Below, in pieces: positions 1 through 33,599 of a DNA stretch of 35,025 nt (position 1 is its first letter; each line of letters begins with the position of its first letter). The translations under genes and the position numbers were made by a program. The notes beneath the pieces were generated by a model. It saw nothing but the letters and a program-made list of their open reading frames with translations. It was not told where the DNA came from and ran no database searches. The DNA is from Dechloromonas sp. (GTDB lineage: Bacteria > Pseudomonadota > Gammaproteobacteria > Burkholderiales > Rhodocyclaceae), in the NCBI GenBank assembly GCA_008933675.1, contig WBUO01000018.1, positions 1 through 35,025 on the forward strand. Reading direction: 5' to 3'.

Positions 1-773
1 CCGACGACCCGGCCCGCGCGCTCGCCATCGCCCAGCAACTCGACACGCTGAACCGCGAGCGCCGCGAGATCGAATCCGGCATGCAGGAGCAGGCGCTGCA
101 CCTGCTGGAATCGCTGGATACCAGTGACGCCGCCCCGGGCATCGCCCTCTTCGACGACAGCTGGCACGAAGGCGTCGTCGGCATCCTTGCCTCGCGCATC
201 AAGGACAAGCTGCACCGGCCGGTCTTCGCCTTCGCACCCGGCGAGGGCGGCCTGATCAAGGGTTCCGGCCGTTCGATTCCCGGCCTGCACCTGCGCGACG
301 CACTCGACCTCGTCGCCAAGCGCGCCCCCGGGCTGCTGGTGCGTTTCGGCGGCCATGCCATGGCTGCCGGGGCGACACTGCGCACCGAGAATTTCGCCCG
401 CTTCCGCGAGCAGTTCGCCCAGGTTGCCGGCGAACTGCTCGCCCCCGCCGACCTGACCCGCACGCTGGAAACCGACGGCACGCTGGAAGGCGGCTACTAC
501 TCGCTGGAAATTGCCCGCCTGCTGGAGAACGAAATCTGGGGCCAGGGCTTTCCGGCCCCGCTGTTCATGGACGAGTTCGAGGTCGAGCAACAGCGCGTGC
601 TCAAGGAAAAGCACCTGAAGTTGCGCCTGCGCAAGGGCGACGCCCGCATCGACGCCATCCAGTTCAACTTCGCCGTGCAACCCGGCCACAGAACGCGACT
701 CGCCTTCCGTCTGGCAATCAACGAGTACATGGGTGTCGAGACCCCGCAACTGCTGGTCGAACACCTCGAATAG
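1..773 (+). CDS. recJ: Single-stranded-DNA-specific exonuclease RecJ, C-terminal part (5' end outside window)
   Basis: This is the 3' part of recJ. The frame is open from base 3 and gives about 256 residues ending at TAG 771-773; the first Met at 81 is internal, since the upstream in-frame residues (DDPARALAIAQQLDTLNRE) continue the protein. RecJ degrades single-stranded DNA 5' to 3' in recombination and mismatch repair. The visible part covers the DHHA1 region, with the phosphoesterase-type GGHAMAAGATL motif and the IKGSGRSIPGLHLRDAL stretch, followed by the C-terminal OB-like domain. The N-terminal DHH motifs lie outside the window. In E. coli recJ is followed directly by prfB; here a signalling block of about 10 kb separates them. 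Identification is from motif and family knowledge and is secure. Confidence 0.95.
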   Translation, partial: DDPARALAIAQQLDTLNRERREIESGMQEQALHLLESLDTSDAAPGIALFDDSWHEGVVGILASRIKDKLHRPVFAFAPGEGGLIKGSGRSIPGLHLRDALDLVAKRAPGLLVRFGGHAMAAGATLRTENFARFREQFAQVAGELLAPADLTRTLETDGTLEGGYYSLEIARLLENEIWGQGFPAPLFMDEFEVEQQRVLKEKHLKLRLRKGDARIDAIQFNFAVQPGHRTRLAFRLAINEYMGVETPQLLVEHLE

Positions 774-871: not shown

Positions 872-896
872 GGGATTCGAGGGGGTGTCAACGCAC

Positions 897-3686
897 ATGC
901 CGACATTTTCACTGAGCAGCAGACTCTGGCTGGTTCTTGCCCTGGCGATCATCCCGCTGCTGGCACTCACCGTCTTCGACTTCCGCCATGAGCGCCAGAC
1001 GGCTACCGAGCACATCCTGTCGCTGGGCCGCAGCCTGCTCCAGCATTCGCGCATCGAGGAAGAGGCCGCTCACCGTCAGGTCCGCGAACTGCTGCACATC
1101 ATGGCCGGCGCCGACAACATGCGCGGACTCGATGCGGCTGACTGCTCCGGCCTGGCCCGGCGCCTGCTCGCGGCATCCGGGGAGATCGCCAACATCGGCG
1201 CTGCCCTGCCCAACGGCGACATCTTCTGCTCGGCTCACACCATCAAGCAGCCGGTCAACGTCGCCGACCGCCCATGGTTCCAGCAGGCGCTGACCGCCAC
1301 CGACGTTACCGACGGTCACTATCTGGTCGGCCGCATCTCCGGCAAACCGGGCGTCACCTTCGGCATGCCCCTGCGCGCGGCTGACGGCAGACTTCTGGCC
1401 ACCCTCTACGCCGCCAGCGACATCGGCTGGTTCGACCGGATCAGCCGCAACCAGCAATTACCGCCCGGCTGGACATCGTTGCTCGTCGCCCAGGACGGCA
1501 GCGTCGTTTCGCGCTATCCCGACCCCGATATCTGGCGCGGCAGCAATTTCGATCCGGCCAGCCGGCAACGCCTGGTCGCCGCCCTGCAACGGGGCGACGA
1601 CAGTGTCGTGACCCAGGGCGTCGACGGCATCGAGCGGCTGTTCCTGCTGCGCCGCCTGCAGATCGCCAACGGCCAGCTGGTGGCGGCGATCGGCGCGCCG
1701 GTCAATGAATCGCTGAAAGCCGTCGAGCGTGCCTTCATCCTGCATGTTGCCCTGCTCGCTTCGGTCGCCCTCCTCTCCATCCTGCTGTCGCGCTATTACC
1801 TGTATCGCCTGATCGAGCGCTGGGTCGACCAGCTCAAGAAGGCGACGGCGAGCATGGCCGGCGGCGACTTCTCGGTGCGCCTGAACGACCCGCGTCTGCC
1901 GGAGGAACTCGGCCTGCTCGACCAGCGCTTCAATGACATGGCCCGCGCCCTGGGCGAACGGGAAAACGAACTCGCCGCCGACCGTCAGGCCATCGAAATG
2001 CTCAACAGCCAGCTGGCCGAGCGTCTGGCGGCACAGGAGGCCGCCGACCAGGACCTGCGCCGCCTGTCCACCGCCGTCGAACAGAGCCCGGCGAGCATCG
2101 TCATCACCGACGTCGACGCCCGCATCACCTACGTCAATCTCGCCTTCTGCGTGAATAGCGGCTATTTCGCCGACGAAGTGCTCGGCGAGAACCCGCGCAT
2201 CCTGCAGTCCGGCGACACCGCACCGGAGGTCTACCACGACATGTGGAAGACGCTGACCGCCGGCGAGATCTGGCGCGGCGAGCTGGTCAACCGGCGCAAG
2301 GACGGCAGCCATTTCATCGAGCGCGCCACCATCTCGCCGGTCCGCGGCAGCGACGGGACAATCAGCCAGTACGTGGCGGTCAAGGAAGACATCAGCGAGC
2401 AACGGCGCAACGAAGCGGAACTGGCCACACATCGCCAGCACCTCGAGCTGCTGGTCGAGCAACGCACGGCCGAGCTGGCGCAGGCCAAGACGGCTGCCGA
2501 GTCGGCCAACCGGGCGAAGTCGGCCTTCCTGGCCAACATGAGCCACGAGATACGGACGCCGATGAACGCCATCATCGGCCTCAACTACCTGCTGCTCAAG
2601 AGTCCGCTCGATGCCGCCCAGCGCGACAAGCTGCTCAAGGTGACGAGCGCCTCCGAGCACCTGCTGCAGGTGATCAACGACATCCTCGACCTGTCGAAGA
2701 TCGAATCCGGCAAGCTCGAACTGGAAAACCAGAGCTTCGCCCCCCGCGAAGTCCTGCAGGCAGCCGCCGCGGTGATCCGCGATCAGGCGCTGGGCAAGGG
2801 CCTGCAGGTCAGCGTCGACTGTGGCAACCTGCCGGCGCTGGCCATGGGTGACGCCAAACGCCTGCGCCAGGTGCTGATCAACTTTGCCGGCAACGCGCTG
2901 AAATTCACCCGTAGCGGTTCGATCCGCTTCTCCGGCGAGCTGCTGGCCAGCGACGGCAACACCCTGACCTGCCGCTTCACCGTCACCGACACCGGCCTCG
3001 GCATCCGTCCGCAAGACATTCCGCGCCTGTTCAAACCCTTCGAGCAACTGGACGCCTCGACGACCCGCGAGTATGGCGGCACCGGACTCGGCCTGGCGAT
3101 CGCCCATCATCTTGCCCGGCTGATGGATGGCGAGGTCGGCGTCGACAGCACGCCGGGCCAGGGCAGCACGTTCTGGATCACCGCCCGCCTGCATGCCCCC
3201 GCCGGATCGTCGGGCAGGCAGCAGCCGGCCGGCGCGCCCCAGGCCAGACGACTGAGCGGCCGGGTATTGCTGATCGAGGACGACCCGCTGAATCGCGAAA
3301 TCGGCTACGACCTGCTGGTTGCCTGCGGTATCGATGTCGCCACCGCCGATGACGGCTTCAGCGCCATCAGCCGCTTCCAGGAAGGTGGTTTCGACCTGCT
3401 GCTGATGGATGTCCAGATGCCCGGACTCGACGGCCTCGACGCCACCCGGCGCATCCGCAGCCTGCCCGGCGGCGAGACCATACCCATCGTCGCCCTCACC
3501 GCCAACGCCTATGCCGAGGATCGCCAGCGCTGCCTGGCCGCCGGCATGAACGATTTCCTGGCCAAGCCGGTGGATCCGGAAGCGCTCTATGCGATTCTCG
3601 GCAAGTATCTGGCCGGCCCCGAAAGCGCCGGCGCCCCCGCCGACGGCGTCGCGGGGGCGGCGCCCCCCTCGACCCCGAGGCCCTGA
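897..3686 (+). CDS. Membrane-bound hybrid sensor histidine kinase (sensor-HAMP-PAS-HisKA-HATPase-REC), apparently frameshifted near the 3' end
   Basis: About 929 aa from ATG 897. An in-frame GTG at 885 overlaps the ribosome-binding site GAGGGGG, so ATG 897 is preferred. Order seen: transmembrane helix (about residues 6-25), periplasmic sensor region resembling double Cache (about 30-275), second membrane helix (about 280-300), HAMP (about 300-355), PAS ending near residue 500, HisKA with phospho-acceptor His550 in MSHEIRTPMN, HATPase_c with N box, DTGLGI and GGTGLGLAI motifs, then REC with Asp838 in LLLMDVQMPG. It should autophosphorylate on His550 in response to a periplasmic and/or PAS-sensed signal and pass phosphate to Asp838 and perhaps to downstream receivers. 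It is the first gene of the signalling block. The reading frame closes at TGA 3684-3686 shortly after a GC-rich hairpin, while a clearly coding 66-codon tail continues in another frame to 3868. Ligand unknown. Confidence 0.9.
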   Translation: MPTFSLSSRLWLVLALAIIPLLALTVFDFRHERQTATEHILSLGRSLLQHSRIEEEAAHRQVRELLHIMAGADNMRGLDAADCSGLARRLLAASGEIANIGAALPNGDIFCSAHTIKQPVNVADRPWFQQALTATDVTDGHYLVGRISGKPGVTFGMPLRAADGRLLATLYAASDIGWFDRISRNQQLPPGWTSLLVAQDGSVVSRYPDPDIWRGSNFDPASRQRLVAALQRGDDSVVTQGVDGIERLFLLRRLQIANGQLVAAIGAPVNESLKAVERAFILHVALLASVALLSILLSRYYLYRLIERWVDQLKKATASMAGGDFSVRLNDPRLPEELGLLDQRFNDMARALGERENELAADRQAIEMLNSQLAERLAAQEAADQDLRRLSTAVEQSPASIVITDVDARITYVNLAFCVNSGYFADEVLGENPRILQSGDTAPEVYHDMWKTLTAGEIWRGELVNRRKDGSHFIERATISPVRGSDGTISQYVAVKEDISEQRRNEAELATHRQHLELLVEQRTAELAQAKTAAESANRAKSAFLANMSHEIRTPMNAIIGLNYLLLKSPLDAAQRDKLLKVTSASEHLLQVINDILDLSKIESGKLELENQSFAPREVLQAAAAVIRDQALGKGLQVSVDCGNLPALAMGDAKRLRQVLINFAGNALKFTRSGSIRFSGELLASDGNTLTCRFTVTDTGLGIRPQDIPRLFKPFEQLDASTTREYGGTGLGLAIAHHLARLMDGEVGVDSTPGQGSTFWITARLHAPAGSSGRQQPAGAPQARRLSGRVLLIEDDPLNREIGYDLLVACGIDVATADDGFSAISRFQEGGFDLLLMDVQMPGLDGLDATRRIRSLPGGETIPIVALTANAYAEDRQRCLAAGMNDFLAKPVDPEALYAILGKYLAGPESAGAPADGVAGAAPPSTPRP

Positions 3687-3868
3687 ACGCCCTGGCCGCC
3701 ATGCTGGCCACCGGCGACATCAAGGCCAGCCTGGCCTACGCCAGCCTGCAGCCTTCGCTCAAGGCCGGTTTCCCGGATGTCTGGGAGACGCTGCAGCGGG
3801 CGATGGACAATTTCGATTTCGAGCAGGCCCGGGAGATCGTCCGCACGCTGCTCACGCGCATGGCATGA
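3662..3868 (+). other. Out-of-frame C-terminal tail of the hybrid kinase (putative frameshift)
   Basis: From 3668 the frame one base behind that of the kinase (-1) reads 66 residues beginning LDPEALNALAAMLATGD and ending REIVRTLLTRMA before TGA 3866-3868. Third positions are nearly all G or C, and the sequence is helical and resembles the short C-terminal extension seen after the receiver domain in related hybrid kinases. The upstream frame-0 residues (GVAGAAPPSTPRP) look like low-complexity linker. One extra base in the G5/C6 tract at 3653-3668 would fuse the two into a protein of about 990 aa. Possible causes are a real deletion, polymerase slippage, programmed -1 frameshifting or a sequencing error. 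No good ribosome-binding site precedes an internal ATG, so a separate gene is unlikely. Confidence 0.75.
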
Positions 3869-3962
3869 AGCCAGCGCTCCGCAACCGTGGAAGTACCTTG
3901 CCTGCCGGCCCGCTGCGGGAGAAACTAGCGGACATCGGCAACCAGAACCGGGAGAGATGGCC

Positions 3963-6914
3963 ATGACGGATCGGGAGACAGATTCGCGAATGGCGGCAAG
4001 ACCCGTCGTGCTCGCCGTGGACGACGTTCCCGACAACCTGAGCACCATCGCCAACATGCTGCAGGAGCTCGACGTCAATGTCCGGGTTGCCAGCAATGGG
4101 GCGACGGCGCTCCGCTACGCCAGTCTCGAGCCGCGTCCCGACCTGATCCTGCTCGACGTGATGATGCCCGGCATGGATGGCCACGCCGTGCTGGCCGAGC
4201 TGCGCGGTCGCCCGGAAACCCGCGACATCCCGGTGATTTTCGTCACGGCACTGGACAGTGCCGCCGATGAGGAAGCCGGACTGCTCGAAGGCGCCGCCGA
4301 CTACATTACCAAGCCGATCAAGCCATCCGTGCTGCGCGCCCGCGTCCAGGCCCAGCTCGAACTCAAGCTGGCGCGTGACCGCCGGGCCAGCCAGCAGGAA
4401 TGGCTGGAAAACGAAGTCCGGCGACGTGTCGCCGAGAATGCGGCCCTGGAGGCACGCCTGAAACTGGCGATCGATTCGGTCGAACTGGGCATCTGGGAAC
4501 TGGATCACCAGACCGGCCAGACCGTCTGGAGCGATACCCTGCGCCAGCTGTTCGGCCTGGACACCCACCCGGCCGATCTGGCCGGTTTCCTGGCGATGGT
4601 GCACCCCGAGGATCGGCCAGCCGTCGAGAAGCGTCTTGGCGAACTGTCCTCGCCCGACAACGAGGTACGCGTCGAGGAATTCCGCGTCCGCCATCACGAC
4701 GGCCACTGGCTCTGGGTGGAAGCCCGTGGTCGCGCCCTGCGCCGCGATGCCGGCGGCGCACCGCTGAATTCGGTCGGCGCGATGATCGACATCAGCCGGC
4801 GCAAGCAGGCGGAGATGGAACATCGCCTTTCGGCGGCCGTATTCACCCAGATCAGCGACGGCGTCTGCATCACCGACCCGGCCAACCGCATCCTGCTGAC
4901 CAACGCTGCCTTCAGCCGGCTGACCGGTTACAGCAGCGACGAGTTGCGCGGCCAGACGCCGGCCATGCTCAAGTCGGGGGCACACGGACCGGCCTACTTC
5001 CGCGCCATGTGGGATGCGCTCGGACAGCAGGGCAGCTGGCAGGGCGAAATCACCAATCGCCGCAAGGATGGCGAACTGATCACCGAGTGGCTGAGCATTT
5101 CCGCGGTCCATGACGAGAACGGCCGCCTGGCCAACTACATCGGTATCTTCAGCGATCTGTCGGAACGCAAGGCGGCTGCCGAACGCATCCAGTACCTGTC
5201 GAGCCACGACCCGCTGACCGATCTGCCCAACCGCAACCTCTTCGCCGACCGCCTGGCCCAGTCGCTGCTCGCCGCCCAGCGTTTCGGGCGGCAGACGGCC
5301 GTCATCCTGCTCGATCTCGACCGCTTTCGCAGCATCAACGAGACCCTCGGCCCACCGGCCGGCGACGAGGCGCTGCGCGAGATCGTCCGCCGCCTGAACC
5401 TGCAGGTAAGGGATGGCGACACCATCGGCCGCCGTTCCGGCAACGAGTTCGGTTTCGTCATGGCCAACCTCGGCCACGAACACGACGCCATCGCCCTCGC
5501 CCAGCGCCTGCTCGACGCCATCGCCCAGCCGTTCGCCGTGGCCGGCCAGGCCATCTCGCTGACCGCCAGCATCGGTATCAGCGTCGCCCCGCGTGACGGC
5601 AACAGTGCCGACGAACTGCTCAAATCGGCCGACAGCGCGCTGTCCCGGGCCAAGGCTGCCGGCCGTAACACCTTCCGTTTCCATTCCGCCGAGATGGACG
5701 CCGACGCCGCCCGTCGCCTGGGCCTGGAAACCGCCCTGCGCAACGCCCTGGCCAATAACGAGATGGCGGTCTACTACCAGCCGCAGATCAGCCTGGAAAG
5801 CGGCAACATCGTCGGCATGGAGGCGCTGCTGCGCTGGAACAGCCCGCAGTTCGGCAGCATTTCGCCGCTCGAATTCATCCCCATCGCCGAGGAAACCGGC
5901 CTGATCCTGCCCATCGGCGAGTGGGTGCTGCGCCAGGCCTGCCTGCAGACTCGCCGCTGGCTGGATCTCGGCCTGCTCAACCTGCGTGTCGCGGTCAATC
6001 TGTCGGCCCGCCAGTTCCGCCAGCCGGCCCTGCAGCGCATCATCGCCCAGGTGCTGGCCGACAGCGGCTTGCCGGCCGCTGCGCTGGAACTGGAGATCAC
6101 CGAGAGCGCCTTCATCGAGGAAGTGGACGAGGCCATCGCCACCTGCCGTGCCCTGAAGCAACTCGGCGTCAAACTGTCGCTCGACGACTTCGGCACCGGC
6201 TATTCCTCGCTCGCCTACATATCGCGCTTCCCCTTCGACAAACTGAAGATCGACCAGAGCTTCGTCCGCGACATCATCGAGAACCCGGTGAACGCGGCCA
6301 TCGCCACGGCAGCCATCGTCATGGGCCGGAGCCTCAACCTGGCCGTGCTTGCCGAGGGGGTCGAAACCGAAGCCCAGGCAAGCTTCCTGCGCGGCCGGCG
6401 GTGTGATGCGATGCAGGGCTACCTGTTCAGCCGCCCGCTGCCCGGTAGCGAATTCGAGCAGTTGCTGACCGGCGACAAGCGTCTGGCGATTCCCGACATT
6501 CCGGCCGATCCCGGACAGACGCTGCTGCTCGTCGATGACGAACCGAACATCCTCAATGCGCTGACCCGGCTGCTGCGTCGCGAGGGTTACCAGATACTGA
6601 CCGCGACCTCGCCGCTGAGCGCTTTCGAGTTGCTGGCCAAACACCCGGTACAGGTCATCCTTTCCGACCAGCGGATGCCGGACATGTCGGGCACCGAGTT
6701 CTTCTCACGCGTCCGCCAGCTCTACCCGGACACCATCCGCATCGTGCTCACCGGCTATACCGACCTCGATTCGGTGACCGGCGCCATCAATCGCGGTGCC
6801 ATCTACAAGTTCCTGACCAAGCCCTGGGACGACGACCTGTTGCGCGAACAGGTCCGCGACGCCTTCCGCCTGGCCAAGGAAACCGACCGCCGCAGCCCGC
6901 CGCCGGAGGCATGA
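3963..6914 (+). CDS. Multidomain response regulator / cyclic di-GMP phosphodiesterase REC-PAS-PAS-GGDEF(degenerate)-EAL-REC
   Basis: 983 aa. ATG 3963 is chosen because GGGAGA (3950-3955) lies 7 nt upstream; the in-frame ATG 3957 is too close to it. Order: REC with Asp65 (LLDVMMPGMDG), a short coiled stretch, two PAS domains (about 155-285 and 290-410), GGDEF-type domain (about 415-580), EAL domain (about 595-840), and a C-terminal RpfG-type REC with Asp902 (ILSDQRMPDMSG) and KPWDDD. The cyclase signature reads SGNEF (residues 492-496) instead of GGDEF, so diguanylate cyclase activity is unlikely; an RxxD I-site (RDGD, 483-486) stands five residues before it. The EAL domain has its key motifs: EAL at 620-622, NLSARQF, ELEITES, DDFGTGYSS, KIDQSF, EGVET, QGYLFSRPLP. 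It is therefore expected to hydrolyse c-di-GMP to pGpG. The stop overlaps the next gene by ATGA. Confidence 0.93.
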   Translation: MTDRETDSRMAARPVVLAVDDVPDNLSTIANMLQELDVNVRVASNGATALRYASLEPRPDLILLDVMMPGMDGHAVLAELRGRPETRDIPVIFVTALDSAADEEAGLLEGAADYITKPIKPSVLRARVQAQLELKLARDRRASQQEWLENEVRRRVAENAALEARLKLAIDSVELGIWELDHQTGQTVWSDTLRQLFGLDTHPADLAGFLAMVHPEDRPAVEKRLGELSSPDNEVRVEEFRVRHHDGHWLWVEARGRALRRDAGGAPLNSVGAMIDISRRKQAEMEHRLSAAVFTQISDGVCITDPANRILLTNAAFSRLTGYSSDELRGQTPAMLKSGAHGPAYFRAMWDALGQQGSWQGEITNRRKDGELITEWLSISAVHDENGRLANYIGIFSDLSERKAAAERIQYLSSHDPLTDLPNRNLFADRLAQSLLAAQRFGRQTAVILLDLDRFRSINETLGPPAGDEALREIVRRLNLQVRDGDTIGRRSGNEFGFVMANLGHEHDAIALAQRLLDAIAQPFAVAGQAISLTASIGISVAPRDGNSADELLKSADSALSRAKAAGRNTFRFHSAEMDADAARRLGLETALRNALANNEMAVYYQPQISLESGNIVGMEALLRWNSPQFGSISPLEFIPIAEETGLILPIGEWVLRQACLQTRRWLDLGLLNLRVAVNLSARQFRQPALQRIIAQVLADSGLPAAALELEITESAFIEEVDEAIATCRALKQLGVKLSLDDFGTGYSSLAYISRFPFDKLKIDQSFVRDIIENPVNAAIATAAIVMGRSLNLAVLAEGVETEAQASFLRGRRCDAMQGYLFSRPLPGSEFEQLLTGDKRLAIPDIPADPGQTLLLVDDEPNILNALTRLLRREGYQILTATSPLSAFELLAKHPVQVILSDQRMPDMSGTEFFSRVRQLYPDTIRIVLTGYTDLDSVTGAINRGAIYKFLTKPWDDDLLREQVRDAFRLAKETDRRSPPPEA

Positions 6915-9253
6915 TGCCAGGCCGACCGGGCGTCACCCGCCATCACCCTCTCGCCCCCTACGCACTGGCCGCGCTGCTCGCCGCGGCGGCAGGCGGCCTG
7001 TTCGTCTCCGGCCTGCCGGCCTGGGCGGCCACCCTCGCCCTTTTCATCCTCCTCGCCGGCACGCTGGTCAGCCTGCGCCGGGGCATCCGTGGCAGCCGGG
7101 AATCCGAACAGCGCCTGCGGGCTGTCGTGGACCATGCCCAGGTCGGCATCGGCCGCGTCCTGCCCGACGGTCGCTGGATCGATGTCAATCCGGCGCTCGC
7201 CCGGATGCTGGGCTATACGCCGGAAGCCATGCAGGGCAAGACCTGGGTCGAGATGACCCACCCCGACGACCTGGCGACCAGCCGCGCCGCCTTCGATGCC
7301 GTGTTGCGCGGAGAACAGGACACCTACTCGCTGGAAAAGCGCTACATCCGCGGCGACGGCTCGATTGCCGAGACCCTGATCCATGCCCGGGCCATCTTCG
7401 GTCACGAGCACCGGCTGGACTACATGACCGTCGTCATCACCGACATGAGCGAGCGGCGGCGCGTCGAACAGGCGCTCGAGCTGCAGGTCAAGCGCGCGGC
7501 GGTGCTGCTCGACCTGCCGAAGCGGGGGGAAACCCTGAAGGAAAGCGAGTTCATGCAGTACGCCCTGGAGCAGGCGGAAAGCCTGACCGGCAGCCACATC
7601 GCCTTCATGCACTTCGTCAACGACGATGGCAATTCGATCGAACTGGTGGCCTGGTCGGGCAATACGCTGAAGCACTATTGCCACGCCGCCTACGACAAGC
7701 ACTACCCGGTCGCCACCGCCGGCATCTGGGCCGATGCCGTGCGCTCCGGCAAGCCGGCCATCTTCAACGACTACGCCACGGCCCCCAACCGGCGCGGGCT
7801 GCCGGAGGGCCACTCGCAGCTGACGCGCCTGCTCAGCGTACCGACCGTCGTCGGCTCCGCCGTACGCATGGTCACCGGCGTTGGCAACAAGGAGAGCGAA
7901 TACAGCGATTTCGATGTCGAGACGGTCCAGCTGATCGGCAACGAAACCTGGCGCATCGTCAATCGCCTGCGCTCGGACCATGCCCTACGCCTCGCCATGC
8001 AGGTGGTCGATGCCAGCCCTGTCGTCTGTTTCCGCTGGCAGGCGAGTAGCGGCTGGCCGGTGGTCTTCGTTTCCAAGAACGTCAGTCAGTGGGGCTACCA
8101 GGCGGCCGACCTGCTCGCCGGCCGGCCGCATTTTGCCGACATGGTGCACCCGGACGACCTGGCGCGCGTCGTTGACGAGGTGAAACGCAACACCGCCGCC
8201 GGTCTCGGCGCCTACGACCAGGAATACCGGCTGGTCACCGCCGACAACCGGGTGATCTGGGTTGCCGACCGGACCCAGGTGCTGCGCGACGACAGCGGCA
8301 CCCCCTTGTACTACGACGGGGTGATCACCGACATCACCCAGCGCAAGCAGCAGGAACTGCTGCTTGCCGACAATCTGAACCGCCTGCAGACCTTGAACGA
8401 GCGCCTGGAAGAAGCCGGCAGCCAGTTGATGCAGTCAGAAAAGATGGCGTCGATCGGCCAGCTGGCTGCCGGTGTCGCCCATGAACTGAACAATCCGATC
8501 GGTTTCGTGCATTCCAATCTCGGCACGCTGGACGGTTATCTGCACGACCTGCTGGCCATCATCGAGGCCTATCAGCAATGCCTCGCCCAGCGGCCCGAGT
8601 GCAGCGATGCCGCAGCCATCGCCAGGCTGCTCGAGCAGCGCGACTACGCCTTCATCCGCGATGACGTCTTCAATCTCGTTGCCGAATCGAAGGAAGGCCT
8701 GAGCCGCGTCCGCAAGATCGTTCAGGACCTGAAGAGCTTCTCGCGTGTCGGCGAACAGGAGTGGCAGGAAGCCGATCTGCACCAGGGGCTCGATTCGACG
8801 CTGAACATCGTCTGGAACGAACTGAAATACAAGTGCAAGGTGATCAAGGAATACGGCGACATCCCGCCCGTCTACTGTCTGATTTCGCAGCTCAACCAGG
8901 TATTCATGAACCTTCTGGTCAATGCCGGCCAGGCCATCGAAAGCCAGGGCACGATCACCATCCGCACCTCCCGCCAGGGCACGGACGCCGTCTGCGTCGA
9001 GGTCGCCGATAGCGGCTCGGGCATTCCGCCGGAAAATCTGAACCGCATCTTCGATCCTTTCTTCACCACCAAACCGATCGGCAAGGGGACCGGCCTGGGC
9101 CTCTCCCTCTCCTACAATATCGTGCGCCGCCATCATGGACGCATCGACGTCAGCAGCGAACCCGGAGTCGGTACCAGCTTCCGCATCATCCTGCCGATCC
9201 GCCAGGACAATAACGGCGACTCAACCGCCAAACCGATGGAGCAAAGCCCATGA
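6911..9253 (+). CDS. Sensor histidine kinase with PAS-GAF-PAS sensory region
   Basis: 780 aa from ATG 6911, which overlaps the preceding stop (ATGA). The adjacent ATG 6914 is slightly better placed after GGAGG (6905-6909). The N-terminus carries two hydrophobic segments (about residues 13-30 and 33-52) forming a membrane hairpin with almost no periplasmic loop. Then come PAS (about 70-190), a GAF-like domain (about 195-350), a second PAS with HPDD and ITDITQRK features (about 355-480), HisKA with the H box [17 protein letters not shown] (phospho-acceptor near His524), and HATPase_c (N box [32 protein letters not shown]). There is no attached receiver domain. The likely phospho-acceptors are the RpfG-type receivers encoded on either side, by gene coupling (inference). 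The signal is probably cytoplasmic or membrane-derived. Confidence 0.92.
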
Positions 9254-10545
9254 CCGAGGCGCCTCCCCTCACCCTGCTCTTCGTCGACGACGAACCGAGC
9301 ATCCTTTCCGCCCTGCGCCGCCTGTTCCGGCCGCACGGCTACCGCATCCTGATTGCCGAAAGCGGCCAGGCCGGCCTCGACACGCTGGAGAGCGAAACGG
9401 TCGACCTGGTCATTTCCGACATGCGCATGCCGGAAATGGACGGTGCCACCTTCCTCAAGGCGGTACGCAGCAAGTGGCCCGGCATCATCCGCATCCTGCT
9501 GACCGGCTATGCCGACATCACCTCCACCATCGCCGCCATCAACGAGGGCGAAATCTATCGCTACATCGCCAAGCCCTGGGACGACACGGAAATCGTCCTC
9601 ATCGTCCGCGAGGCACTGGAACGGCAACGCCTGGAACAGGAAAACCGGCGGTTGAGCGAACTCACCCGGCAGCAGAACGAGGAGTTGAAGGCGCTCAACG
9701 CCGGTCTCGAGCAGAAGGTGGCCGAACGTACGGCGGAAGTCCGCGGCGCCCTCGGCGAATTGCGCAAGACCTTCATGGCCACCGTCCAGGTCTGCGCCGG
9801 CATGGTCGAACTGCGGGCCGGCCAGGCCGGCGCCCAGCTGGCCGGCCACGGCCGGCGGGTTGCCGAGCATGCGCGGGCGACGGCCCGCCGTCTGCAACTG
9901 AGCGACGGCGAGGTGCAGACCATCATGCTGGCCGGCCTGCTCCACGACATCGGCAAGATCGGCCTGCCGGACGAGTTGCTGGTCCGCCCGTTCAACCTGC
10001 TGACGCCCGAACACCGGGCGATGGTGATCAAGCACTCGGTGCTGGGCCAGAACATCCTGATGCCGATCGAAAAGCTGCGCGACACCGCCCTGCTCGTCCG
10101 CCATCACCACGAGAACTACGACGGCAGCGGCTTTCCCGACCGTCTGGCCGGCATGGCCATTCCCCTCGGCAGCCGCATCCTGGCTGTCGTCAACGACTAC
10201 GACGCCCTGCAGATCGGCACCCTCGCCCAGCGCCCGCAAAAACCCGACGACGCACTGAACTTCCTGCTCGACAACCGTGGCCGGCGCTACGACCCGCGCG
10301 TCGTGGACACTTTTGCCGCCATACTTGCCGAGACGCAGAAACCGCCCCCCGGTGAAACGGCAATACGGCCGATGCACCTCAAGCCGGGGCAGGTTCTCGC
10401 CCGCGAACTCAATCATCCGGAAGGCTTCATGCTGCTGGCCCAGGGCAGCCGTCTGACACCGGAGATCATCCAGCAGCTGGTCAAGCTGGAGGAAAGCGAA
10501 CAGCGCGCCTACACGCTCTACATCCGCCAGGAGGAAAAATCATGA
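9250..10545 (+). CDS. Two-component response regulator with HD-GYP phosphodiesterase domain (RpfG-like)
   Basis: 431 aa, starting at an ATG that overlaps the previous stop (ATGA 9250-9253). N-terminal REC (about 8-125) has phospho-acceptor Asp57 in LVISDMRMPEMDG and an RpfG-type end (LLTGYAD, KPWDD). A coiled linker (about 130-180) precedes the HD-GYP domain (about 180-360), which has the metal-binding HD pair His232-Asp233 in LLHDIGKIGLPDE and the HHENYDGSGFP motif near residue 285. The GYP tripeptide is GFP here, a conservative change. A tail of about 60 residues (MHLKPGQVLARELNHPEG) follows. The family degrades cyclic di-GMP, some members also cGAMP. Phosphorylation by the upstream kinase probably controls activity (inference). 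It is translationally coupled to both neighbours. Confidence 0.93.
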   Translation: MTEAPPLTLLFVDDEPSILSALRRLFRPHGYRILIAESGQAGLDTLESETVDLVISDMRMPEMDGATFLKAVRSKWPGIIRILLTGYADITSTIAAINEGEIYRYIAKPWDDTEIVLIVREALERQRLEQENRRLSELTRQQNEELKALNAGLEQKVAERTAEVRGALGELRKTFMATVQVCAGMVELRAGQAGAQLAGHGRRVAEHARATARRLQLSDGEVQTIMLAGLLHDIGKIGLPDELLVRPFNLLTPEHRAMVIKHSVLGQNILMPIEKLRDTALLVRHHHENYDGSGFPDRLAGMAIPLGSRILAVVNDYDALQIGTLAQRPQKPDDALNFLLDNRGRRYDPRVVDTFAAILAETQKPPPGETAIRPMHLKPGQVLARELNHPEGFMLLAQGSRLTPEIIQQLVKLEESEQRAYTLYIRQEEKS

Positions 10546-11105
10546 GCCGCATCATGCTCGTCGACGATGAGGAATCGATCCTCAAATCACTGCGTCGCCT
10601 GCTGCGCTCCGTACCCTGCACTTGCGGCAGCAAGGCCTTCACGCTGGAAGTCGAGGCCTTCACTTCGGCCCGCGAGGCCCTGCAGCGGGCCCGTGACGAG
10701 GATTTCGACCTTTTCGTCAGCGACTACCGCATGCCGGAAATGGATGGCATTGAATTCCTCAAGGCCGCCAAGGAGATACGCCCCGATGCGGCACGCCTGA
10801 TCCTCTCCGGCTACGCCGACCTGAACGCGCTGATCCGGGCGGTCAACGAGGTCGGCATCGAGCGCTTCATCGGCAAGCCGTGGAACGACTACGAACTGGT
10901 GGCGGCAATCGGCCAGGCCCTGGCCCACCGCGACCTGATGCTGGAAAACCGCCAGCTGGCCAATCTGGTCCGTCTGGAGATGGGCGACACGACGCCCGAG
11001 CAACTGGAAGCGGAACGCCTGGAGCATCTGGAGCCCGGCATCACGCAGGTCAACTGGGGGCCGGACGGCTCGGTCCTGCTCGACCCCGATACCGGCAGGG
11101 AGTGA
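10542..11105 (+). CDS. Single-domain response regulator (REC) with short C-terminal extension
   Basis: 187 aa. ATG 10542 overlaps the preceding stop (ATGA), with ribosome-binding GAGGAA at 10531-10536. REC domain: acidic pair in MLVDDEES, phospho-acceptor Asp61 in LFVSDYRMPEMDG, LSGYAD and the KPW lysine motif. It is closest in style to the RpfG-type receivers of the two neighbouring proteins. Two features are unusual: an insert of about ten residues after the first helix carrying two close cysteines (PCTCGSKAF, about residues 25-33), and a tail of about 60 residues without a recognisable output domain. It could be a phosphate shuttle or sink within the relay, or act through protein contacts; function is inference. 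Last gene of the block. Confidence 0.9.
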   Translation: MSRIMLVDDEESILKSLRRLLRSVPCTCGSKAFTLEVEAFTSAREALQRARDEDFDLFVSDYRMPEMDGIEFLKAAKEIRPDAARLILSGYADLNALIRAVNEVGIERFIGKPWNDYELVAAIGQALAHRDLMLENRQLANLVRLEMGDTTPEQLEAERLEHLEPGITQVNWGPDGSVLLDPDTGRE

Positions 11106-11144
11106 GCCGGGGCGGCAGGCACGGCCGGCCCGGCCGGGGCGCAG

Positions 11145-11183: not shown

Positions 11184-12288
11184 ATGGACGCCGAACACCT
11201 GAACAGCATCTCCTACAAGCTCGACGATCTGGCGCAGCGCGCCGCCGAGCTGCGGAGGTATCTTTGACTACGATCACAAGCGCGAACGTCTGACCCTCCT
11301 CTGCCAGGAGATGGAAGATCCCAAGATCTGGGACGATCCGAAACGCGCCCAGGAACTGGGCAAGGAAAAGAAGTCGCTGGAAGACATCGTGCTCGTCCTC
11401 GAAGCCGTCGATAGCGGCGTCAAGGACGGCCGCGAACTGTTCGCCATGGGCAAGGAAGACAACGACGACGACACGCTGCTCGCCGTCGAGGCCGATAACG
11501 CCGAGCTGGAAAAGAAGCTGGCCGCCCTGGAATTCCGCCGCATGTTCAACAATCCGTCCGACCCGATGCCCTGCTTCCTGGAAATCCAGGCCGGTGCCGG
11601 CGGCACCGAGGCGCAGGACTGGGCCTCGATGCTGCTGCGCATGTACCTGAAGTTCGGCGAGAAGAAGGGCTTCACGGTCGAGGTCATGGAAGAGTCGGAA
11701 GGCGACGTCGCCGGCATCAAGAGCGCCACCGTCAAGTTCACCGGCGACTACGCCTACGGCACACTGCGCACCGAAACCGGCATCCATCGCCTGGTCCGCA
11801 AGTCGCCGTTCGATTCCAACGCCCGCCGTCACACCAGCTTCACCTCGGTCTTCGTCTTCCCGGAAGTCGACGATTCGATCGAGATCGCCATCAATCCGGC
11901 CGACGTGCGTACCGACACCTACCGCGCCTCCGGGGCCGGCGGTCAGCACATCAACAAGACCGACTCCGCCGTGCGTCTGACGCACGTGCCGACCGGCATC
12001 GTCGTGCAGTGCCAGAACGACCGTTCGCAGCACCGCAACCGCGACGAAGCCTGGCAGATGCTGCGCGCCCGCCTGTACGAGTTCGAGCTGCGCAAGCAGC
12101 AGGCCGAGCAGCAGAAGCTGGAAGACGCCAAGTCCGACATCGGCTGGGGTCACCAGATCCGCTCCTACGTGCTCGACCAGTCGCGCATCAAGGACCTGCG
12201 CACCAACCACGAGACCGGCAACACCCAGGCCGTACTCGACGGTGACCTCGACCCCTTCATCGAGGCCAGCCTCAAGCAGGGCGTCTGA
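11184..12288 (+). CDS. prfB: Peptide chain release factor 2 (with programmed +1 frameshift)
   Basis: RF2 recognises UGA and UAA and triggers peptide release. The gene begins at ATG 11184 (AGGAA at 11174-11178 upstream). The first 27 codons end at an in-frame TGA (11265-11267); translation must skip T11265 and continue in the +1 frame from GAC 11266 to the TGA at 12286-12288, giving 367 aa (join 11184..11264, 11266..12288), close to the 365 aa of E. coli RF2. The release-factor signatures are present: the tripeptide anticodon SPF in [14 protein letters not shown] and the catalytic GGQ in [16 protein letters not shown]. The frameshift autoregulates RF2 levels: low RF2 leaves the ribosome paused at UGA and favours shifting. 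In E. coli prfB lies between recJ and lysS; here both flanks have extra genes. Confidence 0.97.
11254..11268 (+). promoter_or_regulatory. prfB programmed +1 frameshift site
   Basis: The internal Shine-Dalgarno-like GGAGG (11254-11258) is followed by TAT, the slippery CTT (11262-11264), the stop TGA and a C. Its 3-nt spacing to CTT equals that of the canonical E. coli site. The slippery core CTTTGAC is identical to the family consensus. Confidence 0.95.
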
Positions 12289-22538: not shown

Positions 22539-23657
22539 TCAAGGTGCCACGATATGGGCCAGCGCCAGATATTCGCGCGAATTCATCTCGGTCAGGCGGC
22601 TGACCGTGCGCTTGAACTCGCTGGCCTGGGTGCCCTCGGTATACAACTCGTCGGCCGGGCAGTCGGCTGTCGCAATCAGCTTCACCTTGTTGTCGTAGAA
22701 GACATCGACCAGCCAGGTGAAGCGCCGCGCCTCGGAAGCCTGGTGCTGGGTCATGCGTGGAATGTGGGAGAGGAGCACGGTGTGGTAGCCGCGCGAAATC
22801 TCCAGGTAATCGTTCTGCGAACGCGGGCCGCCACACAGGGTACGGAAATCGAACCAGATGACGCCATGACCGCGACGCACGGTCGCAATCTCCCGGCCCA
22901 GGACGTCGATATGACCGCCCTTCTTGCCCTCCTCTCCGGCCACCATGCGGAAATAGTCGAGCATCTTCTTCTCGGCAGCCTCATCGGCCGGATGATGGTA
23001 GATCTCGACCTGTTCCAGCGCCCGCAGGCGGTAGTCAATGCCGGAATCGACCTCGAAAACATCCAGGTGCTTCTTCAGCAGCGCGATGGTCGGCAGGAAA
23101 CTTTCCCTGTGCAGGCCGTTCGGGTAGAGCATGTCCGGCGGATAGTTGGAAGTCATGACGACGATCACGCCATTGGCGAACAGGCCATCCATCAGGCGGC
23201 CGAGGATCATCGCATCGGCAATGTCGGAAACGTGGAACTCGTCGAAACAGAGCAGGCGCACCTCCTTGGCAATATCGGCGGCCAGTTTCAGCATCGGGTC
23301 GGACTCGCCCTTGTATTTCTCCAGATCGCGATGGATCTGCTGCATGAAGGAATGGAAATGCAGGCGCTTCTTGCGCCGGTAGGGCACCGAATCGTAGAAG
23401 CAATCCATCAGGAAGCTCTTGCCACGGCCGACGCCGCCCCAGAAATACACGCCTTTCGGCGGCTTCGGCGGATTGAGCAAACGCTTCAGCGTACTGCCCC
23501 GATCGACCTTGAAATACAGCAGGTTGGTATACAGCGCCTGCAGGGCATTGGCCGCCGTCATCTGGGCGGCATCGGCGATATAGCCGCGAACATCGAGCAA
23601 CTGCCGGTAGGCGTCGAGCATGCCTTGGGCGGCGACATTGAGTTTTCTGTGTGGCAT
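22539..23657 (-). CDS. zapE: Cell division protein ZapE (AFG1-like ATPase)
   Basis: 372 aa. P-loop ATPase of the AFG1/ZapE family, a cytoplasmic protein that in E. coli interacts with FtsZ at the division ring and is important under low oxygen or stress. Walker A is GGVGRGKSFLMD (about residues 74-85) and Walker B is LLCFDEFHV (about 134-142); VVMTSNYPPDMLYPNGL is a further family stretch (sensor region). Length agrees with E. coli ZapE (375 aa). The start ATG 23657 has only a weak Shine-Dalgarno sequence. A strong terminator separates it from lpd upstream, so it probably has its own promoter in 23658-23694 and leads a three-gene operon with the two genes that follow. Confidence 0.93.
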   Translation of the reverse strand: MPHRKLNVAAQGMLDAYRQLLDVRGYIADAAQMTAANALQALYTNLLYFKVDRGSTLKRLLNPPKPPKGVYFWGGVGRGKSFLMDCFYDSVPYRRKKRLHFHSFMQQIHRDLEKYKGESDPMLKLAADIAKEVRLLCFDEFHVSDIADAMILGRLMDGLFANGVIVVMTSNYPPDMLYPNGLHRESFLPTIALLKKHLDVFEVDSGIDYRLRALEQVEIYHHPADEAAEKKMLDYFRMVAGEEGKKGGHIDVLGREIATVRRGHGVIWFDFRTLCGGPRSQNDYLEISRGYHTVLLSHIPRMTQHQASEARRFTWLVDVFYDNKVKLIATADCPADELYTEGTQASEFKRTVSRLTEMNSREYLALAHIVAP

Positions 23658-23693
23658 CGGGGCGAAGCGTCAGGGGGAAAGGCGTATTCTGCC

Positions 23694-23731
23694 AAATAAA
23701 AAAGGCGGGTGCGTTGCCGCAACCCGCCTTT
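23694..23731 (-). terminator. Rho-independent terminator of lpd
   Basis: On the minus strand AAAGGCGGGT (23731-23722) pairs with ACCCGCCTTT (23710-23701) in a 10-bp stem with an inner GCG/CGC extension, followed by a run of T (A-rich 23694-23703 on the plus strand). It begins 20 bp after the lpd stop. Confidence 0.9.
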
Positions 23732-23751
23732 GGCGAACGAGACGTTGCTGC

Positions 23752-25176
23752 TTAGAAGTGCAGCGGGCGTTTGTCGCAGGCCAGCGCCGCTTCGTGCACC
23801 GCTTCCGACAGCGTCGGGTGAGCATGGCAGATGCGTGCCAGATCTTCCGAGGCACCACCGAACTCCATCGCCACGACGGCTTCGGAAATCAGTTCGGAAG
23901 CATTCGGGCCAATGATGTGCACGCCGAGGATGCGGTCGGTCTGCGCGCAGGCCAGCATCTTGACGAAGCCGGTCGGGTCGCCCATCCCCAGTGCCCGGCC
24001 GTTGGCCAGGAACGGAATCTTGCCGACCTTGTACGCGACACCATCAGCTTTCAGTTGCTGCTCGCTCTTGCCGACCCAGGCGATTTCCGGGGCGGTGTAG
24101 ATGACGCCCGGGATGGTGTCGAAGTTGCAGTGACCGGCCTGGCCGGCGATCAGCTCGGCGACCATGACGCCTTCTTCCATCGCCTTGTGGGCCAGCATCG
24201 GGCCGCGCACCACGTCACCGACGGCCCAGACACCCGGCAGGTTGGTCTTGCAGTGGCCATCGACCTCGATCATGCCGCGCTCGTTGAGCTTGAGGCCGAC
24301 CGCGTCGGCATTCAGGCCATCGGTGTTGGGGATGCGGCCGATGGAGACGATCAGGCGGTCGGCATCGAGCTTCTCGGCCTTGCCGTCCTTGCTTTCGTAG
24401 GCAATGGAAACGCCCTTCTTGGTCGTCTTGATCTCGCCGATCTTGACGCCGGTCTGGATGTTCAGGCCCTGCTTGTTGAACAGCTTGAGCGCTTCCTTGG
24501 CGATGTCCTGGTCAGCGAACGCCAGGAAATCCGGCATTGCTTCGAGGACGGTCACTTCGGAACCGAGACGGCGCCAGACCGAGCCCATTTCCAGGCCGAT
24601 CACGCCGGCGCCGATGATGGCCAGCTTCTTGGGCACGGATTCCTGATCCAGCGCCCCTTCGTTGTCCATGACGATCTTCTGGTCGACCGGCACGTTCGGC
24701 AGATGGCGCGGCTTCGAGCCGGTAGCGACGATGACCTGCTTGGCCAGCACGTCCTCGCCGCCGACCTTGACCTTCCAGAAGTCGCCTTCCTTGGCGACGA
24801 AGGAGCCGTGACCCGGGATCATCGTGACCTTGTTCTTCTTGAACAGGCCCTTGATGCCGGAAGTCAGCTGATTAACGACGCCGTCCTTGCGCGCCTTCAT
24901 GACCGGCACGTCGATGGTCGGCTTCGACACCTTGATGCCCTGGCCGGCAAACGTATGCGCGGCCTCTTCGAACAGGTGCGAGGTGTGCAGCAGGGCCTTG
25001 GACGGGATGCAGCCCACGTTCAGGCAGGTGCCGCCGAGGCGCGGTTCGCCCTTGGGATCGGCATAGGGATTGGATTCGCAGCAGGCGGTCGAGAAGCCCA
25101 GTTGCGCGGCGCGGATCGCCGCCACATAACCGCCGGGGCCACCACCGATGACGAGCACGTCGAATTGCTTGGACAT
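23752..25176 (-). CDS. lpd: Dihydrolipoyl dehydrogenase (E3 of 2-oxoglutarate dehydrogenase)
   Basis: 474 aa from ATG 25176 (AGAGAGG about 5 nt upstream). It re-oxidises dihydrolipoamide on the E2 subunit, passing electrons through FAD and a redox disulfide to NAD+. Seen: FAD motif [12 protein letters not shown], redox pair in [17 protein letters not shown] (about residues 49-65), NAD motif [15 protein letters not shown] (about 187-201), second FAD motif [18 protein letters not shown], and the catalytic His-Glu in [13 protein letters not shown] near the C-terminus. It is downstream of odhB, 76 bp away, with a hairpin between them, and is followed by a strong terminator. Confidence 0.97.
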
Positions 25177-25205
25177 TTGTTACCTCTCTTGTTCTTTAGA
25201 TGTGC

Positions 25206-25240
25206 AAAGGCGCCAGCGCCCGGTCTGGGACACTGGCGCC
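25206..25240 (-). terminator. Hairpin between odhB and lpd (attenuator or partial terminator)
   Basis: On the minus strand GGCGCCAG (25240-25233) and CTGGCGCC (25216-25209) are perfect 8-bp arms with a 16-nt loop that can pair further (CCC/GGG), followed by only three T residues. It could lower expression of lpd relative to odhB or stabilise the odhB 3' end. Confidence 0.5.
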
Positions 25241-25252
25241 GGCGAACGTCAG

Positions 25253-26494
25253 TTAGACGCCGAGCAGCAGGCGGGACGGGTCTTCCAGCGCTTCCTTCAT
25301 GGTCACCAGACCGAGCACGGCCTCGCGGCCGTCGATGATGCGGTGATCGTAGGACATCGCCAGGTAGTTCATCGGGCGCACCACCACCTGACCATTCTCG
25401 ACCACGGCGCGATCCTTGGTGGCATGAATACCGAGGATCGCCGACTGTGGCGGGTTGATGATCGGGGTGGACATCATCGAACCGAAGATGCCGCCATTGG
25501 AGATCGAGAAAGTACCACCGGTCAGGTCTTCGATGGACAGCTTGCCATCCTTGGCCTTGTTGCCGAACTCGGCGATCTTCTTCTCGATGTCGGCGATCGA
25601 CATCTGGTCGGCGTTACGGATGATCGGCACGACCAGACCGCGCGGCGAGCCGACGGCAATACCGATGTCGATGTAGCCGTGGTAGACGATGTCGTTACCG
25701 TCTACAGAAGCATTCAGGATCGGGAACTTCTGCAGCGCGGCACAGGCGGCCTTGACGAAGAAACCCATGAAGCCGAGGCGGACGCCGTGCGTCTTCTCGA
25801 ACTTCTCGCCGTACTGCTTGCGCAGGGCCATGACCGGAGCCATGTTGACTTCGTTGAACGTGGTCAGGATGGCATTGGTGGCTTGCGATTCGAGCAGGCG
25901 CTCGGCAATGCGGGCACGCAGGCGGGTCATCGGCACGCGCTCTTCCGTGCGGTCGGCAAGGGCGACACCGGACGGCGGCACCGGCAAAGAGGTCGTCGCC
26001 GACTTGGCGGCGACAACCGGGCCGGCCGCGGCTGCCGGCTTGGCTTTGGCAGCGACGGCATCTTCCTTGGTAACGCGACCGCCGCGCCCCGAACCCGCGA
26101 CGTCCGCAGCAGCAATGCCCTTCTCGTCGAGGATCTTGCGGGCCGACGGGCTGGCCGTACCGGCCGGCGCAGCGGCAGCCGGGGCCGGAGTGGCCACCGG
26201 CGCGACAGCAGCCTTCGGTGCTTCGGCAGCCGGGGCGACGGCACCGGCAGTGGCAGCGGTGTCGATCTTGGCGATCAACTCGCCGGAAACGACGGTCTCG
26301 CCATCACCCTTGATGATCTCGACGAGCACGCCGGCAGCCGGGGCAGGCACTTCGAGAACGACCTTGTCGGTTTCAATGTCGATCAGCACTTCGTCACGGG
26401 CAACGGCTTCGCCGATCTTCTTTTTCCAGGATGCGAGGGTGCCTTCGGCTACGGACTCGGAAAGCTGGGGAACTTGAACTTCGATAATGCTCAT
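25253..26494 (-). CDS. sucB: Dihydrolipoyllysine succinyltransferase (E2 of 2-oxoglutarate dehydrogenase)
   Basis: 413 aa from ATG 26494 (GGAG upstream); also called odhB. It transfers the succinyl group from lipoamide to CoA and forms the core of the 2-oxoglutarate dehydrogenase complex. Seen: one N-terminal lipoyl domain with the lipoylated lysine in [11 protein letters not shown] (about Lys43), an Ala/Pro-rich flexible linker, a peripheral-subunit-binding domain ([18 protein letters not shown], about 115-150), a second Ala-rich linker, and the catalytic domain with [12 protein letters not shown] near the C-terminus (catalytic His and Asp). It begins 23 bp after odhA and is likely co-transcribed with it. 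Confidence 0.97.
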
Positions 26495-26517
26495 GGTGAC
26501 TCCACTCTGCTGTTTTA

Positions 26518-29358: not shown

Positions 29359-29427
29359 AGGCGTCCCCACCTGGGTCTTTTATCTTTGTCTCTGTTGCTG
29401 CGGAAGCCAGCCAAAAGGCCCCGCATG

Positions 29428-29453
29428 AAAAAAAGGGCGGCACGCAGCCGCCC
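29428..29453 (-). terminator. Rho-independent terminator of gltA
   Basis: On the minus strand GGGCGGC (29453-29447) and GCCGCCC (29441-29435) form a perfect 7-bp stem with a 5-nt loop followed by seven T residues (A-run 29428-29434 on the plus strand), 9 bp after the gltA stop. Confidence 0.9.
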
Positions 29454-29462
29454 GATTCTCTT

Positions 29463-30761
29463 TTAGCCGCGTTGCGCCAGCGGTACGACATCGCGCTTTG
29501 CTGCGCCCATATACAACTGACGCGGACGGCCGATCTTGTATTCCGGATCGGAGATCATTTCTTCCCACTGCGTCATCCAGCCGACCGTACGGGCCAGCGC
29601 GAAGATACAGGTAAACATCTCGGTCGGGATTCCGATCGCCTTCTGAACGATACCGGAGTAGAAGTCGACGTTCGGGTAGAGCTTCTTCTCGACGAAGTAC
29701 GGATCTTCCAGGGCGATCTTTTCCAGTTCCATGGCCAGCTTGAACAGGCGATCGTTTTCCAGGCCCAGTTCGCTCAGCACTTCGTTGCACACCTTGCGCA
29801 TCAGCTTGGCACGCGGGTCGAAGTTCTTGTAGACGCGGTGACCGAAGCCCATAAGCTTGAAGGAGTCGTTCTTGTCCTTGGCGCGGTTGATGTACTCACC
29901 GACGCGCGACACGTCGCCGATTTCTTCCAGCATCTGCAGGCAGGCTTCGTTCGCACCGCCGTGTGCCGGACCCCACAGGCAGGCGATACCGGCCGAGATG
30001 CAGGCGAACGGGTTGGCGCCCGACGAACCAGCCAGACGGACGGTCGAGGTCGAGGCATTCTGCTCGTGATCGGCGTGCAGCGTGAAGATGACGTCAAGGG
30101 CGCGGACCAGCACCGGGTTCGGCACATACTTCTCGCACGGATTACCGAACATCATGCGCATGAAGTTGGCGGTGTAATCCAGATCGTTGTCCGGATACAG
30201 GAAGGGTGCGCCGGTGTTGTACTTGTAGGCCATGGCGACGATGGTCGGCAACTTGGCCACGATGCGGTTGAAGCTGATGTTGCGGTGCTCGGCATCCGAG
30301 TAGTCCATGGCTTCGTGGTAGAAGGCGGACAGGGCGCCGACGACACCGACCATGACAGCCATCGGGTGCGCATCACGACGGAAACCGTTGTAGAAACGGG
30401 TCAGCTGGTCATGCACCATCGTGTGCTTCTTGATGGTGGTTTCGAAAGTGGTCTTCTGGGAAGCGTTCGGCAGTTCGCCATTCTTCAGCAGATAGGCAAC
30501 TTCCAGGAAGTTGCAATTTTCAGCCAGTTGTTCAATCGGGTAACCGCGGTACAGCAGCTCGCCCTTGTCGCCATCGATGAACGTGATTTTCGACTTGCAG
30601 CTGGCGGTGGAAAGGAAACCGGAGTCATAGGTGAACAGACCGGTTTTACCACCCAGAGTACGAATATCGACGCAGTCGTTGCCGTGCGTCGGGGACATGA
30701 TCGGGAAATCGACGGGCGCTTGTCCGTCGATCGTCAGGGTTGCCTTGCGTTCGGTCGTCAT
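29463..30761 (-). CDS. gltA: Citrate synthase (type II, hexameric)
   Basis: 432 aa from ATG 30761 (AAGGGAAGAA upstream). Condenses acetyl-CoA and oxaloacetate to citrate, the entry step of the TCA cycle. Seen: the N-terminal beta region typical of Gram-negative type II enzymes ([13 protein letters not shown]-like, here [19 protein letters not shown]), catalytic histidines in [15 protein letters not shown] (about 232) and [10 protein letters not shown] (about 273-277 region) and the catalytic Asp in NVDFYSGIV (about 367). Length agrees with E. coli GltA (427 aa). It follows sdhE by 83 bp on the same strand and has its own terminator. Confidence 0.97.
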
Positions 30762-30844
30762 GGTTTCTTCCCTTTTCAGGTGTTGGTTATCACTGCACTG
30801 CCAAAATTACGGTCAACGTTGGAAAAATACCCCGCCAACCTTAC

Positions 30845-33597: not shown

Positions 33598-33599
33598 GC

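Follow-up and report, generated by a model that had tools for sequence, protein, structure and literature searches.

Is the run of five signalling genes that lies between recJ and prfB on a contig of Dechloromonas sp. (WBUO01000018.1) a complete pathway, or the part of a larger one that remains at this place? The window, i.e. the whole stretch of 35,025 nucleotides analysed here, is one entire contig of a 4.87 Mb draft genome in 530 contigs, with a contamination of 4.9%. A first-pass annotation had described the five genes, called here P1 to P5, as a phosphorelay block, and much of this description stands. Open reading frames and Pfam matches place five same-strand genes between recJ and prfB, encoding two histidine kinases (the hybrid P1, and P3), five receivers (P1, P2 N-terminal, P2 C-terminal, P4 and P5), an EAL domain and an HD-GYP domain, and the last four genes are indeed joined by ATGA overlaps, at starts 6911, 9250 and 10542. 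The five genes are not, however, the natural unit that was claimed, because P1 is variable and the cluster continues beyond P5, where further genes normally follow. We propose that the window holds the upstream control half of a multi-input phosphorelay that would lower cyclic di-GMP (c-di-GMP) and, where intact, would steer an MglA/PilB-type pilus output, the genes P6 to P9 having been deleted here. From the sequence comparisons below, we give this reading a probability of roughly 0.57. The features on which it relies are the following.

885..3686, + strand: P1, hybrid histidine kinase, HAMP-PAS-HisKA-HATPase_c-REC; start at GTG 885 or ATG 897
3957..6914, + strand: P2, REC-PAS-PAS-degenerate GGDEF (SGNEF)-EAL-REC, the last receiver with KPW (Pfam and motifs)
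6911..9253, + strand: P3, PAS-GAF-PAS-HATPase histidine kinase; no Pfam HisKA; H-box GVAHELNNP at residue 521
9250..10545, + strand: P4, REC-HD-GYP response regulator, NosR family NF053512
10542..11105, + strand: P5, REC followed by a long C-terminal helix and a conserved tail (Pfam and structure model)
11090..11134, no strand: junction; the match to P5 of relative G027 stops at 11089 and restarts at 11135

The cluster behind P5 in relatives and its absence from the window

Scanning the genome collection yielded 71 loci; 70 were kept as P5 relatives, and L132, at 23% identity, was dropped as a chance match. The named relatives nearest to the source are metagenome-assembled genomes labelled Betaproteobacteria, together with Azonexus and Dechloromonas strains and metagenome-assembled genomes. 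In the two closest, G026 and G027 (P4 91-92% identical), the genes run in the order P2-P3-P4-P5-P6-P7-P8-P9, and this extension past P5 is also present in many other Azonexaceae. Dechloromonas denitrificans and D. hortensis (loci L074, L069) are examples that carry the cluster in full. The search for the gene order across relatives, as the first-pass annotation had suggested, has a double outcome: the order P2 to P5 recurs, but the cluster extends to P6-P9. P1 is a variable partner among relatives, and G027 has other genes upstream of P2, without P1 or recJ. In G026 (L057, 8864-13083), three opposite-strand genes, one of them matching P2, lie between the cluster and prfB.

The additional genes have recognisable products. 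P6 of G027 is an MglA-type GTPase of 217 aa, assigned on its match to the solved MglA structure 3t12 (E 1e-42) and on the P-loop GPA(Q/R)(S/G)GKTT, which is present in 31 of 33 aligned rows. P7 is a histidine kinase in which no sensor domain was recognised, and P8 consists of a receiver, an MshEN domain and a PilB/GspE-type ATPase (match to PilB, E 1e-126). P9 is again a histidine kinase, of the hemerythrin type in G027; the shorter P9 called in G026 gave no hemerythrin match. Among the 40 nearest loci (L062-L099, L105 and L106), 32 have at least 9 kb upstream of P5, and these contain P4 in 32, P3 in 31 and P2 in 31 cases. Where at least 8.5 kb is available downstream of P5, a P9-type kinase is found on the same strand in 32 of 32, unlike in the window. 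At the distant loci of Roseateles, Mitsuaria and Pelomonas, the common part of the fetched span is P4-P5-histidine kinase.

In the window, P6-P9 (about 5.5 kb in G027) are missing at the locus. From 11135 onward, the window matches G027 with 95% identity, beginning one base past the stop codon of G027 P9. Local alignments favour both the end of P5 in G026 (score 50) and the end of P9 in G027 (score 37), so that the junction is given as the interval 11090-11134. Searches of the own genome at large gave one weak match for P6 (31%, E 5.9e-4) and none at 1e-20. For P8, five ATPases were found which match from residue 174 or later, none spanning the receiver, and the N-terminal part of P8 had no match at 1e-50 among the 35 of 141 candidates scored in that search. 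In a tree of P4 and P5, the window groups with G026 and G027 in a single clade (Shimodaira-Hasegawa-like approximate likelihood ratio test, 100), and as both sisters have P6-P9, a loss in the window lineage is the simplest reading.

The genes left in place are, on the whole, under purifying selection: ratios of nonsynonymous to synonymous substitution rates (dN/dS) for P2-P5 range from 0.11 to 0.30 between the window and its sisters, and from 0.08 to 0.23 between the sisters. The values of the window pairs are slightly higher for P3, P4, P5 and prfB, and lower for P2.

Predicted outputs and wiring

The claim that the five proteins include no intact cyclase and two phosphodiesterase domains (EAL and HD-GYP) agrees with the residues. 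The GGDEF active-site loop of P2 reads SGNEF, which departs from the GG(D/E)EF of diguanylate cyclases; in the P2 rows of relatives (n=44), NEF is read in 29 and DEF in 7 distant ones, the pattern having no match in 8. The EAL domain has the canonical motifs EALLR, VNLSA, EITES, LDDFGTG, KIDQSF, AEGVE and QGYLFS, all seven of which we presume to play their usual catalytic roles. P4 belongs to the NosR family by its match to NF053512 (543.1 bits, cut-off 400, residues 9-425). It reads LLHDIGK and HHENYDGSGFP, i.e. HD is kept, and GFP stands in place of GYP; among 63 P4 rows of relatives, the HD pattern is found in 50 and HHE..DGxG(Y/F)P in 36, with no match in the rest. With a degenerate GGDEF and the EAL residues present, the five-gene set looks c-di-GMP-degrading.

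P2 calls FimX to mind, a protein described in the accessible text of PMC10333796 as REC-PAS-degenerate GGDEF-degenerate EAL and as binding PilB. The two share the order REC-PAS-degenerate GGDEF-EAL, and a PilB partner is present in relatives of the window. P2 differs by its canonical EAL motifs and by a second, C-terminal receiver, and its best matches in the PDB are other GGDEF-EAL proteins, FimX being far weaker. An orthology of P2 with FimX was rejected: the EAL motifs are intact, and the FimX chains 4j40 and 7lkq reach 92 and 87 bits, where the top match has 418.

We next consider which kinase may serve which receiver. The core of P3 resembles the NCBIfam model T2SS_HK (372 bits, under its cut-off of 450). 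The H-box type GVAHE(L/V/I)NNP is common to P3, P7 and P9, whose kinase cores are 39-47% identical, against 26-31% for P1. Two groups of receivers can be told apart: P1 and the N-terminal receiver of P2 (33% mutual identity) on one side, and on the other the C-terminal receiver of P2 (P2C), P4, P5 and P8, which are 35-50% identical mutually and 23-31% to the first group. The P8 receiver, taken from relatives, is 49-50% identical to P2C and P4. KPW is found, as the first-pass annotation had noted, in P2C, P4 and P5, and whether these three make one group was asked by comparing them with five outside receivers, the top P5 matches in the own genome from 54 places found. The pair scores are 115 bits for P2C-P4, 95.5 for P4-P5 and 78.6 for P2C-P5; the best outside receiver, L004 on another contig, scores 85.5 with P4, 80.1 with P2C and 66.2 with P5. 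P4 is thus the best partner of both P2C and P5, above all five outside receivers, but P2C-P5 comes just under P2C-L004. The grouping is partly supported, as a loose group centred on the HD-GYP protein P4. The common H-box type and core of P3, P7 and P9 make it plausible that one type of kinase recognises the KPW receivers, with P1 as a separate line.

As in the RpfC-RpfG pair, P4 is a REC-HD-GYP regulator with a KPW receiver; the H-box of P3 is of the NNP(I)GFV type, and no RpfC-type kinase or rpfF was seen among the genes scanned.

P5, the stand-alone receiver, is modelled with a long helix (116-147) and a second one (152-163), at a mean predicted local distance difference test score of 87, falling to about 70 in the tail. 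In 34 aligned sequences, most positions of this tail, EPGITxVxWGxDGS (window 11031-11072), show a conservation of 90% or more. When the model was used for a fold search, the 50 matches listed were ordinary receivers or receiver-containing regulators and gave no clue to the tail; that it docks a protein is a guess.

A dCache domain is matched in P1 at 31.4 bits, short of the curated cut-off of 45, and the reading frame of P1 is broken near the end.

3663..3868, + strand: P1 frame break at a run of six C (3663-3668), with an out-of-frame C-terminal tail (3677-3868)

The tail is conserved in G026, where it is in frame. Runs of C are a usual site of sequencing error, and the break may be either such an error or a real truncation.

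Put together, these kinships suggest the following scheme. P3-type kinases (P3 in the window; P3, P7 and P9 in intact clusters) would sense signals through PAS/GAF or hemerythrin domains and phosphorylate the KPW receivers of P2 (EAL), P4 (HD-GYP) and P5 (a stand-alone adaptor) and, in intact clusters, that of P8 (the receiver-PilB ATPase). Once phosphorylated, P2 and P4 would lower c-di-GMP, and P8, together with P6, the MglA-type GTPase, would determine the place of extension of a type IV pilus-like machine, or whether it extends at all. P1 would feed in separately, most likely via its own receiver and the N-terminal receiver of P2. A deletion of P6-P9 at the locus would leave the c-di-GMP-lowering arm and one P3-type kinase, and further input could come from the P9-type kinases encoded on other contigs.

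P6-P8 as a possible unit, and other readings of the locus

The distribution of P6-P8 was followed on the 59 of the 70 loci used in the P4 and P5 tables and tree, the others having no called P4 or P5 of sufficient length. With presence decided by score thresholds, P6, P7 and P8 are all found in 30 loci, two of them in one (L091, which has no P8) and none in 28. L097 and L118, which are on short contigs and among the 28, were left out of the count of changes. On the tree, the fewest changes of P6-P8 state amount to 11 over 58 counted tips, with no direction (gain or loss) assigned.

Of 60 genomes, the own genome among them, 13 have MglA, and the REC-PilB N-terminus is found in exactly these 13; three of the MglA matches carry one TGA inside the matched span. 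Among 370 genomes of the class, 8 have MglA and 7 have REC-PilB, each of the 7 being one of the 8, with at most 5 REC-PilB candidates scored per genome. The co-occurrence has a Fisher p < 1e-12 in each set, without kinship correction. MglA, histidine kinase and REC-PilB adjoin in 8 of 9 further fetched loci, L191 showing only a partial P6. A Nitrospirae contig (L131, 9986-17120) has a REC, a REC-HD-GYP, an MglA-type GTPase, a histidine kinase, a REC-PilB and a REC gene consecutively; rho adjoins.

This pattern tentatively suggests, at slightly less than even odds in our judgement, that MglA-histidine kinase-REC-PilB is an effector cassette gained or lost as a unit in a modular signalling island. 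One phosphorelay would then drive both c-di-GMP hydrolysis and an MglA-type GTPase/receiver-PilB motor, a polarity and pilus-extension switch outside myxobacteria, and the window would be a remnant, a natural effector-less variant.

Several points weigh against our main reading of the window as a truncated phosphorelay. Loci without P6-P8 are common (28/59), and since weak support affects 16 of the tree's 57 inner branches, the count of 11 changes may be an overestimate. Elsewhere in the own genome, contig C360 (L171, 1468-3480) encodes a complete P9-type kinase of the hemerythrin type, whose 670 aa show 55-56% identity, along the whole length, to P9 of several relatives. C485 carries a second P9-like kinase, 62-65% identical to those of L070 and L079, so that kinase input is not reduced to P3 and the missing P9 is the copy at the window locus only. 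P2C scores slightly higher with L004, which lies on another contig, than with P5, and GYP is replaced by GFP in P4. The dN/dS values are averages, which say little on the time since a deletion. The MshEN receptor of c-di-GMP is defined in the accessible text of PMC5013675 by two 24-residue motifs beginning RLGxx; in 25 P8 proteins scored, motif I keeps 7-8 of 11 positions and motif II 4-6 of 11, and five more have no motif I in the searched span, making a direct gating of the P8 ATPase by c-di-GMP doubtful. Among the neighbours looked at, no genes for pilins or a pilus platform were recognised, a dedicated search not being made, and pilus output, phosphotransfer and enzyme activity are predictions from sequence.

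Part of this evidence would fit a complete c-di-GMP-lowering phosphorelay of five genes, P6-P9 of relatives being a neighbouring cassette with a separate job. P6-P8 switch state many times on the tree and 28 of 59 loci keep P4-P5 in their absence, many Azonexus loci have only P2-P3-P4-P5-P9, and P6-P8 are divergent in L122; the P9-type kinases on other contigs and the purifying selection acting, on the whole, on the remaining genes also speak for it. Yet P6 is mostly found close behind P5 in the same direction, the P8 receiver belongs to the KPW group, and even loci devoid of P6-P8 keep a P9-type kinase beside P5 (32/32 examined), which the window locus does not. We regard a self-sufficient set of five genes as unlikely, though it is the most serious alternative.

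The absence of P6-P9 could also be an assembly fault, a mis-join in the draft of a living genome that is intact. The number of contigs, the contamination and the frame break of P1 at a site prone to error would agree with it, but the junction is internal to a contig of 35 kb, and P5 is followed there by the native sequence upstream of prfB (95% identical to G027), and neither MglA nor REC-PilB was found on other contigs, which makes this explanation improbable. Finally, a nitric-oxide pathway of the NosP-NosK-NosR kind is very improbable: P4 does pass the NosR cut-off (543 against 400 bits), and a NosK phosphorylating an HD-GYP NosR is reported in the accessible text of PMC12570481, but P4 keeps HD and has GFP where the NosR published there reads HG-GTP, and no FIST (NosP) domain was detected at E 0.001 in the five window proteins or in G027 P6-P9, no genome-wide search being made.

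Flanking genes, known systems and meaning

Two genes flank the block.

3..773, + strand: recJ, 3′ part, running off the contig; 264 bits to the RecJ model over its C-terminal half
11184..12288, + strand: prfB, outside the unit; 489 bits against a cut-off of 370

The ATG of prfB is at 11184 and the usual programmed frameshift signal, GGTATCTTTGAC, at 11257; because of this frameshift, listings of open reading frames begin prfB late, at 11311. With the ATG at 11184, the gap between P5 and prfB is 78 bp. The block was also said to separate recJ from prfB, which is literally so in the window, but the split is not peculiar to it. Within 1.5 kb upstream of prfB, recJ was found at none of 18 other loci of the genus, of which 17 have that whole length and one has 129 bp; among loci belonging to other families of the order, 2 of 11 have recJ there. 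Adjacency of the two genes is thus no rule in this genus, and an insertion into a conserved recJ-prfB pair was discarded as a special feature. Further away, from 23000 to 35025, GC content is down to 56-63%, from 62-69% before; the genes of this part are in the opposite orientation and, judging from sequence, resemble gltA, sucAB-lpd and sdh.

Two further known systems come near to the cluster. The NosP-NosK-NosR system of Burkholderia (PMC12570481, in its accessible text) likewise pairs a histidine kinase with a REC-HD-GYP regulator whose family model P4 passes; the cluster differs by its several kinases, its four sister receivers, the HD residues kept, the lack of a FIST protein among those seen and, in relatives, its link to MglA and REC-PilB. 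In Myxococcus xanthus, according to the accessible parts of PMC11580455 and PMC4316618, an MglA-type GTPase, receivers and PilB act jointly on polar type IV pilus extension, MglA and SgmX recruiting PilB (PMC11580455), and the neighbourhoods of MglA groups 1, 4 and 5 vary widely (PMC4316618). This MglA-RomR/FrzS-SgmX-PilB system has in common with the cluster that an MglA-type GTPase, receiver proteins and PilB come together. It differs in that relatives of the window have the receiver fused to the PilB-type ATPase and clustered with c-di-GMP phosphodiesterases, and in that the window has no MglA or REC-PilB at its locus. No MglB was seen among the scanned cluster proteins (the five of the window and G027 P6-P9), no search being aimed at it. 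A literature search, covering mostly papers outside subscription, did not find a description of the cluster.

If the reading of a truncated phosphorelay is true, the five-gene block of the window should not be taken for a complete pathway. Two-component phosphotransfer, c-di-GMP turnover and MglA/PilB polarity, which are well studied but usually separate, would then be tied into one movable cassette in betaproteobacteria and at least one Nitrospirae contig. Such loci would offer natural pairs, with and without the cassette, from which to learn what MglA and a receiver-fused PilB add.

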